DNA of 64,000 nt. Origin: Nocardia spumae (GTDB lineage Bacteria; Actinomycetota; Actinomycetes; Mycobacteriales; Mycobacteriaceae). Below the pieces are notes generated by a model. The model did no database searches and was not told the DNA's origin. It saw only the letters and a program-made list of their open reading frames with translations. The stretch spans positions 3,968,001 through 4,032,000 of the forward strand of contig NZ_JAJFZL010000001.1 in assembly GCF_020733635.1 (NCBI RefSeq), in the 5' to 3' direction. Of this stretch, positions 27,618 through 32,128 are shown piece by piece. A program made the position numbers and the translations under genes. Each line of letters begins with the position of its first letter. The stretch's first letter is position 1.

Positions 27618-28235
27618 TCACGGCGCGCCGGCGTCGTGACCGGCGATGTGGGCGCGCTCACTACCGCCGGCCGGATCCTGGGCCGGACGATCGACGCGAT
27701 AGATGTAGTGCCACCCGTCGTCGATCGGATTGTCGGGCGGGAGCGGCCCCTCGGCGACCCGGCGCAGCCCGGCCTTCTCGAGCGCTCGCCGAGAAGCCCG
27801 GTTGGCCGCGGCCACGGGAATCACCACCGCTCCGGCGCGCGGGTAATCCGCCCAGGTCGCGGCCACCACGGCCCGCACCATGGCCGAACCGAGTCCGCGG
27901 CCGACACGCAGCGGGTCACCGATCAGATAGTCCAGCGAGACCGCCTCGTCGGGCAGTGCGACTATCGGCCGCATCTCGTCCACGTAGTCCGGCCAATCCG
28001 ACCACCGGATCCGCTGCACCAAACCGAGGGGTTCGGCGCCGATGCTGACGAGCAGATCCTCGGCCGCGACCTCACCACGGGCAGTGGGCCCGAAGTCACG
28101 CTCGATCGACGCGGGATCGTGGTCGTGATTCCACCAGCGCCGCACATGCGGCTGGGCCAGCCACTGCCCGAGCAGGGCGAAATCCCCGGGCGTGACCGCG
28201 CGCCAAGTGAACCGCGGCGGTACCGACTCGACCAC
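27618..28235 (-). CDS. GNAT acetyltransferase (AAC(6')-Ib/siderophore-acetylase-like fold)
   Basis: 205-aa GNAT protein. The sequence [20 protein letters not shown] and the acetyl-CoA motif [19 protein letters not shown] followed by [17 protein letters not shown] fit the Acetyltransf_8 group, which includes aminoglycoside 6'-acetyltransferases and siderophore or amino-acid N-acetylases. GTG 28235 is 42 bp after the carnitine-acyltransferase-like gene, so it may be the fourth gene of the oxygenase/methyltransferase/acyltransferase operon; hisE follows 46 bp later. Substrate unknown; drug resistance cannot be inferred from sequence alone. Confidence 0.87.
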
Positions 28236-28277: not shown

Positions 28278-30095
28278 TCAGGACGCCGAGTCCAGCAGCG
28301 CCTCCAGTTCCGATACCGCCCGGCGCAATTCCTCCGCGAACCGGAACATCTGGTCCGCCACGGTCGTCGGAGTGGCGAGGTAGAGGTTCCACCGATCGGG
28401 CAGCAGAACATAGGCCACACCGATACAGGTGGGGCTGGTGCAGCCGAAACCGAAATATTCGACATTCACCGACGGGGCGGAGCTGGTGCTCAGGTAGTCG
28501 TCGCGGGTGATCACCCAGCCGGGGCTGGTGTAGAACGGCATCGTCTCGGTAGCGCCCAGCTCTGCGCCGCGCCGACGCTGAATCCACTCCAGTTCCCACA
28601 GATGCTGTTCGGGCGCCTCACCGCGCTGGCACTGCTTGGCCCGTTCGACGTGCGCGGTGGCCGCCGCCCGCGCGGCCGCCAGCCGGGTAGCCGGATCGGC
28701 CGACGAATCATCCATGGCGGCAACGAATTCCAGCAGCTGCGGGGTGACCACCCGCATGGCCTCGGTGCGGCCGTTGCGGTACTGGCGGGTGGCGATCGAT
28801 TCGTAGGTCGCCCCGAGCTTGCCCTTACTGCGCTGATGGGCGAGCTGATAGCTCAACTGAGCGAACGCGTCCGGCGAAATGCCGAGCTGCTTGGCCCGGC
28901 TCGTGCCGAAGCCGTCGAACGACACCGTCGTGGTGGCGTTGTCGGCGACGAACTGCGCGAATGCGGCGGCCGCCCCGGAGATCTCCGCGCGCATCGAGTC
29001 GTCGAGACGGAATTCCACCGGTTCCACCGAGGGCAGGCCCTGCGCTCGCGCGCCCGAGCCGGCGGCGTGTTCGGCGACCGGCGTCTCGAGCAGGAAGTCG
29101 ACGAACGACAGAATCGTCGTACCGTCCAGCCCGCAGTGCTCGACGTTGATTCCGGCAGTGCCGTCGGCGAAGACGATCAGCGAGACGGCCTTGTCGAACC
29201 ACCGGTTGCCGCTGTCACCGTGCAGCAGCTGATCACACGCCGCCAGCTCGTCGGCGGGTGTCACATCGTCGAGACAGACGGCGAACAGCGCGGTCTCGAT
29301 CGTCTCCAGCGCGGCCGCGTTGACCGGATCGGCGGCCAACCGGCCACGGACCCCGGCCCATTCGGCCCGCGCCATCGTCGTCAGGTGTCCGGCCGAGGTC
29401 TCGATCGGCGCCTGTTCGGGTGCGGCCTTGAGTACCGCGCGCAGTCCGTCGGCGAGATCCTCGGGTGCGTGCGGCGCGCCGTCCGCACCGATGACCTCCA
29501 TCCGGAACATGGTGCCGTGATGGAAGACCACGATGTGGCGCGCCTGCGAGGGGCCGGGCCACTCGTCGCTGTAGGGCACCCGGACGCTGTCCTGCGGATC
29601 TCCAGGAATTCTGGTCTCGGAGAACAGGAATTTGTTCTGTGCCATCGAAAAGTGCGCCCCGCGTTGCACGACCGGCGGGATCGCCTCCCGGTCGAGCAGC
29701 AGCTTGTAGTTCACCGCCGCGGTGATGAGGCCGGCCGCGCGATCGGCCTGCTGATCCGAACTCGACTGTGCCAGTGCGGTGTCGTTGCGGAACAAGAAGA
29801 AGAAGTTGGCGTTCACGGCGATCCGGTCGCGCCGGCCCAGATACCGCGACGGCCAGAATTCGTCGAGCCAGCTGCCTACCCCGGGAGTCCGGTCGAACCG
29901 CTCCAGGTCGGCGTGCAGGGTGCGGGCCGGGCCGTCGGCGCGCAGCAGATCGGCGACCGCCTCCTCGGTGGCGGCGTATTCGTCCTCCGACAGCAGCGGC
30001 CGCGACCACTGCAGGAAACGCGCACAACTGTCGTCGAGCGTGGGCAGCGGCACACGCGGCAGCTGGTCGTCGAAGGCGAAGGTACGGTCTGTCAC
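28278..30095 (-). CDS. Choline/carnitine O-acyltransferase family protein
   Basis: 605-aa homologue of eukaryotic choline acetyltransferase and carnitine acyltransferases, which exchange acyl groups between CoA and the hydroxyl of a quaternary amino alcohol. The catalytic motif EHCGLDGTT is intact (His320 as general base), preceded by HHGTMFRMEV and followed by DGFGTSRAKQLGISPDAFAQLSYQLAHQR, the CoA- and substrate-binding region, and SPTCIGVAYVLLPDRWNLYL. GTG 30095 overlaps the methyltransferase stop by 4 bp and has GAGG 7 nt upstream. Complete acyltransferases of this family are uncommon in bacteria. With an oxygenase and a methyltransferase in the same operon, an O-acylated hydroxy-betaine product is plausible but unproven. 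Confidence 0.9.
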   Translation of the reverse strand: MTDRTFAFDDQLPRVPLPTLDDSCARFLQWSRPLLSEDEYAATEEAVADLLRADGPARTLHADLERFDRTPGVGSWLDEFWPSRYLGRRDRIAVNANFFFLFRNDTALAQSSSDQQADRAAGLITAAVNYKLLLDREAIPPVVQRGAHFSMAQNKFLFSETRIPGDPQDSVRVPYSDEWPGPSQARHIVVFHHGTMFRMEVIGADGAPHAPEDLADGLRAVLKAAPEQAPIETSAGHLTTMARAEWAGVRGRLAADPVNAAALETIETALFAVCLDDVTPADELAACDQLLHGDSGNRWFDKAVSLIVFADGTAGINVEHCGLDGTTILSFVDFLLETPVAEHAAGSGARAQGLPSVEPVEFRLDDSMRAEISGAAAAFAQFVADNATTTVSFDGFGTSRAKQLGISPDAFAQLSYQLAHQRSKGKLGATYESIATRQYRNGRTEAMRVVTPQLLEFVAAMDDSSADPATRLAAARAAATAHVERAKQCQRGEAPEQHLWELEWIQRRRGAELGATETMPFYTSPGWVITRDDYLSTSSAPSVNVEYFGFGCTSPTCIGVAYVLLPDRWNLYLATPTTVADQMFRFAEELRRAVSELEALLDSAS

Positions 30096-30907
30096 TGGCG
30101 GTCCTCGAGGGTCGATGCGGGCTTGGATATGTAGAGCTGGGCATGCAGCCAGCCGTCGGATTCGTAACCGGTGGCGTCGATTCCGCCGGCGGCCAAGGTG
30201 TTCACGACCTGTTGCTGTTCGGCGGCGGATGCGAAGCGGCGCTGCCGGAAGGTACCGGGGCGGCGCTCGGTCCGGTAGCCCAATGCGGCGAGCTCGCGCG
30301 CGATCGGTTCGAAGGCGTACATCCGCAGGACGAAGTGTGCCATCCACGGTAGCCGCGTACCGTGCGCACGGGCCACCCGTGTCAGGGTACGGCCGGTGAC
30401 GTAGCCGACGCATCCGGTGGACACCACCAGATCCGCCGATCCGAGTATCCGCCGCTGCGTTTCGGTCGGATCCCCGGATTCGAGGTCGGCGTGCACGGTC
30501 TCGTGCAGCAGACCGGTGGCGGCCGCGTAGTCCAACGCCGGCGCCGACGCGTCCATTCCGATCATCCGCAGCCCGGGCAGCCTGTCGTCGGCGCTCAGCC
30601 GGGCGCGGTCGCGGGCGATACAGGTGGCGGTGTCGGCATCACCGTAGTGCTCCGCCAGTTCCGCGACGGTGGTGCCGAACCGCAGCACCGCCGCGTTCAC
30701 GCCATAGGAACAACCGAGGTCCAGGACGGTCGGCACGGCGCCGGTCTCGGCCTCGTAGTCCGCCACCAGATCCAGGAAGGTCGGTTTCGCCAACTCCGGT
30801 ATGCAGTAATCCAATTCGGCCATACGCCTGCAGTAGGCGCTCGGATCCGGGCGATCGTAGATATCGTCGAACGAGGCTTTTCCGGTGCTGTGCATGGAAA
30901 CCGTCAC
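30092..30907 (-). CDS. Class I SAM-dependent methyltransferase
   Basis: 271-aa Rossmann methyltransferase. SAM motif I is VPTVLDLGCSYGVNAAVLRFG, the acidic strand is LRMIGMDASAPALDYA, and ADLVVSTGCVGYVTGRTL is motif IV. The N-terminal ASFDDIYDRPDPSAYCRRM and the C-terminal RRPGTFRQRRFASAAEQQ regions do not match a family I can name. GTG 30907 follows AGGAGG by 8 nt; ATG 30895 is a possible start inside. It lies 29 bp after the oxygenase gene and overlaps the acyltransferase by 4 bp. An N-methylation role on an amino acid or amine would fit the neighbours, but is inference. Confidence 0.87.
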   Translation of the reverse strand: MTVSMHSTGKASFDDIYDRPDPSAYCRRMAELDYCIPELAKPTFLDLVADYEAETGAVPTVLDLGCSYGVNAAVLRFGTTVAELAEHYGDADTATCIARDRARLSADDRLPGLRMIGMDASAPALDYAAATGLLHETVHADLESGDPTETQRRILGSADLVVSTGCVGYVTGRTLTRVARAHGTRLPWMAHFVLRMYAFEPIARELAALGYRTERRPGTFRQRRFASAAEQQQVVNTLAAGGIDATGYESDGWLHAQLYISKPASTLEDRQ

Positions 30908-30936
30908 GGGCGATCCTCCTGAGTCGAACGGGGTGA

Positions 30937-31890
30937 TCAGTCGAGAAGTCGGTCACCGCGCACGGCATTACCCGCGGCGGCCAGATGGTCCGGCAGGACC
31001 CGCCCGAACAGCTGCCGGGTACGTTCGACCGCACCCACGATGCCGGGGCGGTCGCTGTAGGCGAAGATCGCGCTGTGCCGCTGGGCGGTGCCCTCCACCG
31101 GCGATACCCGGTGCAGGGAAAACCTGCCCTGGAACAGTTGCAGATCTCCAGGGCGCAGTGTCAGCCTCCGGACGAGCCGCTCACCGGATCCGGTGAGTAC
31201 GGCCCGGACATCGTCCAGATTCTCCGATTCCGGCGTGCGGATGCGCGGGCAGTATTCGAACACTCCGCCCGCGTCGGGCTCCTGGGTCAGCATGGACACC
31301 GTGAACTCGTTGGTGTCGAAATGCCACGGATGCGACATACCGGGGGCCACCACATTCAGGCACAGCCCGGCCAGAGGATCGGTGTATTCGTGCAAACGCG
31401 GCAGACCGAAACATTCGGCGATCAGCCGCTGGAACGGCGCGCTGGTGTAGAGGACCTGGATCAGCGCGGCCGGAGGGATGAGATCGCGTGCGACGAACGC
31501 GTTTCCGCGTTCGAGCACGATCGTGGCCGGATGATCGGGTGCGAGCTCGCTGTCGAGCGGAATGTTGTAGGCGTTGACCTTCTCCACCGTGTAATACGCG
31601 TGCGGGGCCAGTTCCGCTCCCTCGGCACGCAGTCTGGCGCACATCTCCGGTCGCACGAAACCCGTCAGGACGGTGCATCCATCGGCGGCGAGTTCGGCCC
31701 TGGCGCGCGACACCACCTCGTCCCACCGCTCGCCACCCGGCGCGTCGAGCGGATACCGTTGGGTATCGACGATGGTGGTGAGCCTGTCCACCGCCGCTGG
31801 GATTTCTCCCGAAGACCGTTCTCCCTCAGCGTTTTCCCTGCTCGCCCGGCTCGATTCACCCACGTTGCCACAACCCCCTGTCGCCGCCAT
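30937..31890 (-). CDS. HalD/BesD-like 2-oxoglutarate/Fe(II)-dependent oxygenase
   Basis: About 317-aa cupin-fold oxygenase related to the HalD/BesD (ArpA-like) group that acts on free amino acids. Iron ligands: His and Asp in HPWHFDTNEFTVSM and the distal His in FSLHRVSPVEG; the Arg in TAQRHSAIF should bind 2-oxoglutarate. Because the H-x-D carboxylate is present, this should be a hydroxylase rather than a halogenase (which carry Gly there). The start is uncertain: ATG 31890, ATG 31899 and GTG 31935 are in frame and the first 45 residues are low-complexity, so the true start could be still further in. It is the first gene of the operon with the methyltransferase and acyltransferase. Substrate unknown. 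Confidence 0.85.
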   Translation of the reverse strand: MAATGGCGNVGESSRASRENAEGERSSGEIPAAVDRLTTIVDTQRYPLDAPGGERWDEVVSRARAELAADGCTVLTGFVRPEMCARLRAEGAELAPHAYYTVEKVNAYNIPLDSELAPDHPATIVLERGNAFVARDLIPPAALIQVLYTSAPFQRLIAECFGLPRLHEYTDPLAGLCLNVVAPGMSHPWHFDTNEFTVSMLTQEPDAGGVFEYCPRIRTPESENLDDVRAVLTGSGERLVRRLTLRPGDLQLFQGRFSLHRVSPVEGTAQRHSAIFAYSDRPGIVGAVERTRQLFGRVLPDHLAAAGNAVRGDRLLD

Positions 31891-32009
31891 GAAGATCATT
31901 GTGACCCGCCGGACGCGGTTGTACCGCCGATTCACGGATATCGTTGGGAAAGGTCACAAACTCTCGAGTAACCCTGCGCGCCAGCGATATTCGCCACCAC
32001 AACGATAGC

Positions 32010-32030
32010 GCGCGCGATCATCTCGCGCGC
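32010..32030. terminator. GC-rich hairpin between HAD gene and oxygenase operon
   Basis: Perfect 8-bp stem GCGCGCGA/TCGCGCGC with loop TCATC, about 100 bp after the HAD phosphatase stop on the minus strand. It could end the HAD transcript, leaving the remainder of the gap for the oxygenase promoter. No other element was recognised in 31936-32128. Confidence 0.45.
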
Positions 32031-32128
32031 TGTGAGCGGCACACGGCCGCACGGAATACGGACCGGTCGGACTCCACGCGACGCGGAGGAACGTGGTCCG
32101 GCTCGACGGTGAATCGTTCGCGCCGGCG

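Follow-up and report, generated by a model that had tools for sequence, protein, structure and literature searches.

The window analysed here is a 64,000-nucleotide stretch of the 7.07-Mb genome of Nocardia spumae (NCBI RefSeq assembly GCF_020733635.1, contig NZ_JAJFZL010000001.1, positions 3,968,001 to 4,032,000), and it carries on its minus strand, in this order, genes for a HAD hydrolase, an oxygenase (OXY), a methyltransferase (MT), a choline/carnitine-type acyltransferase (CAT) and a GNAT acetyltransferase, followed by hisE and hisG. OXY (30937..31890) is predicted to encode an Fe(II)/2-oxoglutarate oxygenase of the HalD/BesD family, of the hydroxylase type in that the HxD...H motif is retained; MT (30092..30907) a class I S-adenosylmethionine-dependent methyltransferase outside any curated family; and CAT (28278..30095) a member of the choline/carnitine O-acyltransferase family with an intact catalytic His and with Gln497 at the position of the carnitine-carboxylate Arg. 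An earlier note on this DNA, made from the sequence alone, had described these genes as adjacent, and the coordinates bear this out, with 29 bp between OXY and MT, a 4-bp overlap of MT and CAT, and the GNAT gene 42 bp further on. An ATG at 31890 is a possible start for OXY, but the first 31 residues show no conservation and a predicted local distance difference test score (pLDDT) below 50 in the predicted model, which makes a start at the GTG at 31791 more likely. The start codon of MT is GTG, preceded by AGGAGG, a strong ribosome-binding sequence.

OXY, MT and CAT are a real module whose members belong together. All three were present in the 31 loci closest to the window (31/31, from 30 genomes), and in 80 of 80 named Nocardia loci they stood in the order OXY-MT-CAT on one strand, with more than 300 bp between genes in only five of these, owing to inserted genes. 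CAT itself was found in 149 of the 150 genomes of the genus, the sole exception being an assembly of ~1340 contigs that is likewise without OXY and MT, and the best 80 loci for CAT were all from Nocardia, at up to 90% identity. As named by eye, an NDH-2-like flavoprotein gene lies between MT and CAT in four loci, and a 3.9-kb insertion with MFS-, TetR- and NDH-2-like genes lies between OXY and MT in another.

For the wider distribution we surveyed 397 genomes of the order, a sample in which the 10 Nocardia are interrelated, as are genomes within other genera, and do not represent independent events. CAT was present in 47 of them, OXY in 45 and MT in 41. OXY and CAT occurred together in 44 and were neighbours by coordinates in every one, sharing a strand in 43 and converging in the last (G296), while OXY without CAT was confined to one genome with a distant OXY-like gene (37%). 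MT accompanied them in 37 of the 44, adjoining in 34 and elsewhere in three; a relative of MT without CAT was found in three genomes. Outside Nocardia, in some related soil bacteria, the flanks of the module mostly differ from genus to genus, and thus the module has stayed together in several separate surroundings. The acyltransferase family itself, PF00755, was found in 5 of 396 sampled genomes of the phylum (three of them Nocardia, and one match a weak fragment) and was not found in the plasmid collection.

A one-contig Nocardia genome holds a second copy of the module in which MT and CAT are fused: a relative of OXY (57% over residues 37-302) is followed after 41 bp by a frame of 888 residues, of which 8-269 correspond to MT (43%) and 305-886 to CAT (55%). 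An MT-CAT fusion placed right behind OXY is good evidence for a single pathway in which all three take part. Random co-occurrence, which had been set beforehand as the test for refutation, is excluded by the 44 neighbouring pairs, the 80 Nocardia loci and this fusion.

The module also appears in coding terms much like its histidine-biosynthetic neighbour among close relatives, the ratio of nonsynonymous to synonymous substitution rates in the six closest pairs being 0.096-0.115 for OXY, 0.104-0.143 for MT, 0.107-0.142 for CAT and 0.094-0.151 for hisG; in the two pairs that are further apart, OXY, MT and CAT were looser, at 0.13-0.25 versus ~0.11 for hisG. Some copies are disrupted, the CAT frame being split in two genomes and bearing internal stops in three, with internal stops also in MT (two genomes) and OXY (one), which could reflect either gene decay or errors in the sequence.

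OXY matched the HalD profile PF23169 at 49 bits, against a curated cut-off of 26, and the profile was matched by all 14 members of the OXY alignment. Its Pfam matches were HalD and WelO5 and no other oxygenase family, TMLH and BBOX having been compared through family profiles only, and its nearest solved folds are HalB, HalD, BesD and the lysine hydroxylase 'Hydrox'. Enzymes of the HalD/BesD type act on free amino acids. All 175 distinct tblastn matches keep residues H190, D192, H260 and R271, and given that the Fe-binding Asp192 is thus retained where halogenases have Gly, OXY is of the hydroxylase type and not a BesD-type halogenase. In BesD, according to a published account (PMC13244439), one His contacts the substrate carboxylate, and D143 and E123 bind the ammonium groups of lysine. 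The carboxylate-binding His corresponds to H187 of OXY, which 174 of the 175 matches retain. At the position of D143, however, 170 of them have Thr (Thr193), and that of E123 aligns, in what is a low-identity alignment, with Leu173 (171 of 175). The ammonium-binding acids of BesD are absent from OXY, and it is unlikely that the enzyme acts on lysine as BesD does; the earlier assignment of a BesD-like enzyme for free amino acids is upheld by the nearest folds, with lysine as an unlikely member of its substrates. A distant relative of OXY (~35%) at another locus (L220, 6921-7739, minus strand), which comes without CAT or MT, keeps the Fe ligands but carries Leu in place of H187 and Arg in place of T193.

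CAT matched PF00755 at 530 bits over profile positions 1-573 of 574, and its alignment to human carnitine acetyltransferase (CrAT) extends over the length of CAT at 234 bits (E 3.6e-68). For the catalytic His, Y452, T465, S554 and F566 we assume both the CrAT numbering and the roles. The His was kept in 161 of 162 distinct CATs, and equivalents of the other four are retained, of which F566 and S554 presumably surround the trimethylammonium group of carnitine. Of the stand-alone second CATs of Nocardia, the one inspected (~54%; L223, 7888-9678, minus strand) aligns a Glu with the catalytic His and an Arg with the carnitine position, and is perhaps an inactive or repurposed copy.

The family search with MT returned only sub-cut-off class I matches (Methyltransf_25/12), and its predicted model (pLDDT 91.5) has an ordinary class I fold, with D63, S67, Y68, G69, D119 and E143 kept in 128 of 128 matches. 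The earlier claim that all three active sites look intact holds.

We propose that OXY, MT and CAT constitute a self-contained small-molecule pathway to an O-acyl hydroxy-betaine or hydroxy-amine, a reading to which we assign a probability of roughly 0.4. OXY would hydroxylate a small amine that bears a carboxylate, at an unactivated carbon, MT would methylate this compound, most simply at nitrogen to give a quaternary ammonium, and CAT would move a short-chain acyl group from acyl-CoA onto the new hydroxyl, giving a bacterial analogue of acylcarnitine or of acetylcholine-type esters. Where MT is missing, the methylated amine may be supplied from outside. ABC transporters of the OpuAC/ProV/ProW type carry betaines and choline, and a four-gene ABC transporter with ProV/ProW-like parts adjoins the module in two loci, L102 (G437) and L108 (G296), with an OpuAC substrate-binding protein of 162 and 182 bits, respectively. 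This hints at a quaternary-amine substrate, although it is suggestive only, and in L108, which lacks MT, it would be consistent with uptake of a quaternary amine that is already complete. More tentatively, and with doubt, we extend the proposal to Nocardia and scattered related actinobacteria making a conserved short-acyl hydroxylated quaternary amine from a primary metabolite by means of three enzymes, which would amount to a de novo bacterial acyl-betaine route combining a BesD-type hydroxylase with an acyltransferase of the carnitine type whose specificity was retuned when Gln replaced Arg.

Several points weigh against the proposed pathway. We infer the substrate, the product and the order of the steps, and with them the small size of the amine, N-methylation, the hydroxyl as acyl acceptor and the short acyl chain. 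Among the best structural matches of the MT model, C-, N- and O-methyltransferases lie within 1 Z unit of one another, so that its fold is equally near to all three kinds. MT is missing from 7 of the 44 genomes of the order that have OXY and CAT (G296 among them), CAT occurs without OXY in three, one of which has MT, and in eight Nocardia with a second CAT (52-55%) no second OXY or MT was found at E up to 1e-6. The betaine-type transporter is present in only 2 of 40 loci. In CAT the equivalent of Lys419 of CrAT, presumably a CoA-binding residue, is lost. The equivalent of Met564, a position that we take to limit acyl length and to be Gly in long-chain enzymes, is Phe548 in 130 of the 134 CATs covering it, and so short acyl groups are hinted at, weakly, by a single position. 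Finally, the equivalent of Arg518, which we take to bind the carnitine carboxylate in CrAT, is Gln497 in 136 of the 140 distinct CATs covering the position. Arg occurs in the other four, namely the fused copy, one further paralogue from Nocardia and two distant CATs (L110 and L221, 25-26%), and the last two act as a built-in contrast, being actinobacterial CATs outside the module that keep the carnitine Arg. Since CAT is without this Arg, a strict acylcarnitine product is unlikely.

A rival reading is that the same module works on different chemistry, MT methylating oxygen (for example, a carboxylate to a methyl ester) or carbon, and CAT esterifying a hydroxylated, non-betaine derivative of an amino acid. 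We regard this as unlikely, though as the best placed of the alternatives. It draws on the lack of a specific family for MT and its mixed structural matches, and the Arg-to-Gln change in CAT would fit a masked carboxylate; on the other hand, CAT retains the F566 and S554 equivalents that we take to lie around a trimethylammonium group, a quaternary-amine transporter adjoins the module in two loci, and the CATs of the seven genomes without MT keep Gln in the loci examined, so that Gln does not track MT.

It was also conceivable, at distinctly lower odds, that the module modifies something larger (a peptide, the head group of a lipid or an amino acid bound to a carrier, for example) or that it makes a long-chain acyl lipid. 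Nocardia is lipid-rich, the OXY pocket is unlike that of BesD, and enzymes of PF00755 can presumably take long acyl-CoAs. However, the neighbourhoods of the module in the 40 loci share no conserved gene for a carrier protein, nonribosomal peptide synthetase or polyketide synthase and no conserved lipid gene, the bulky acyl-gate Phe548 stands where long-chain enzymes presumably have Gly, and the relatives of OXY take free amino acids. Least probable of all is that CAT resembles choline acetyltransferase (ChAT) in acylating a ready-made amino alcohol to an acetylcholine-like ester, with OXY and MT preparing or tailoring the alcohol, for although CAT aligns with ChAT at 200 bits and its Gln resembles the Asn that we take ChAT to carry at the Arg518 position, the CrAT score is higher, the presumed Val/Asn signature of ChAT is absent (Thr at the Thr465 position in 162 of 162 CATs, and Gln in place of Asn), and the obligate neighbour of CAT is an oxygenase, which suggests that OXY makes the hydroxyl.

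The three-enzyme route to an O-acyl hydroxy-betaine or hydroxy-amine is thus the reading that we prefer. The outline in the earlier note, of a hydroxylated, methylated and O-acylated amine, survives with the three-gene set, while the GNAT gene is dropped and both lysine and carnitine have become unlikely; its carnitine-type acyltransferase stands as a full-length, catalytically intact member of PF00755 that is without the carnitine-carboxylate Arg.

The GNAT acetyltransferase gene (27618..28235, minus strand), which adjoins CAT and matches Acetyltransf_8, is outside the conserved module. A match to it was present in 21 of the 31 closest loci and in 19 of 80 Nocardia loci (some truncated), but in 0 of 29 loci of the order. 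It resembles AAC(6')-type aminoglycoside acetyltransferases only weakly, scoring 40.5 bits where the cut-off is 280. On the other side of the module, the intergenic region upstream of OXY (31792..32128, minus strand) is the presumed module promoter, judging from the space that separates the HAD gene from the GTG; a search of this region returned neither a promoter of the sigma-70 type nor a terminator, and nothing from Rfam. In two related genomes a gene for a CocE/NonD-type S15 hydrolase overlaps OXY by 4 bp (L105, 10537-12378, and L106, 10916-12736, both minus strand), and MT there comes after CAT; the hydrolase is possibly an extra esterase or peptidase step.

A family so rare in the phylum is almost universal in Nocardia, whose members include opportunistic pathogens and producers of natural products, and given that the set is kept genus-wide and is found as a unit in differing surroundings, its product should be regularly used by the cells. 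If that product is an acylated hydroxy-betaine, it would represent a conserved yet overlooked class of metabolite, which could serve as acyl reserve, compatible solute or signal, and it would give BesD-type oxygenases a new role and provide three enzymes that are easily assayed.

The enzyme families are known; their combination as a conserved three-gene pathway is one that we did not find described in a library of open-access papers, papers beyond it not being excluded. OXY is only 15-20% identical to BesD, HalB, HalD and Hydrox, differs in having Thr and Leu for D143 and E123, and unlike them sits beside a methyltransferase and an acyltransferase. CAT shares with CrAT, COT, CPT and ChAT full-length PF00755 homology, the catalytic His and the Tyr452, Thr465, Ser554 and Phe566 equivalents, and is unlike them in the changes of Arg518 to Gln and Met564 to Phe and in being bacterial and part of a biosynthetic operon. 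In eukaryotic carnitine biosynthesis the oxygenases TMLH and BBOX act first and carnitine acyltransferases follow. The module would be like that pathway in the hydroxylation of a trimethylated amine and subsequent esterification of the hydroxyl, and it is unlike it, as far as Pfam profiles show for the oxygenase, in using a HalD-family oxygenase and a free-standing methyltransferase, with no aldolase or dehydrogenase gene.

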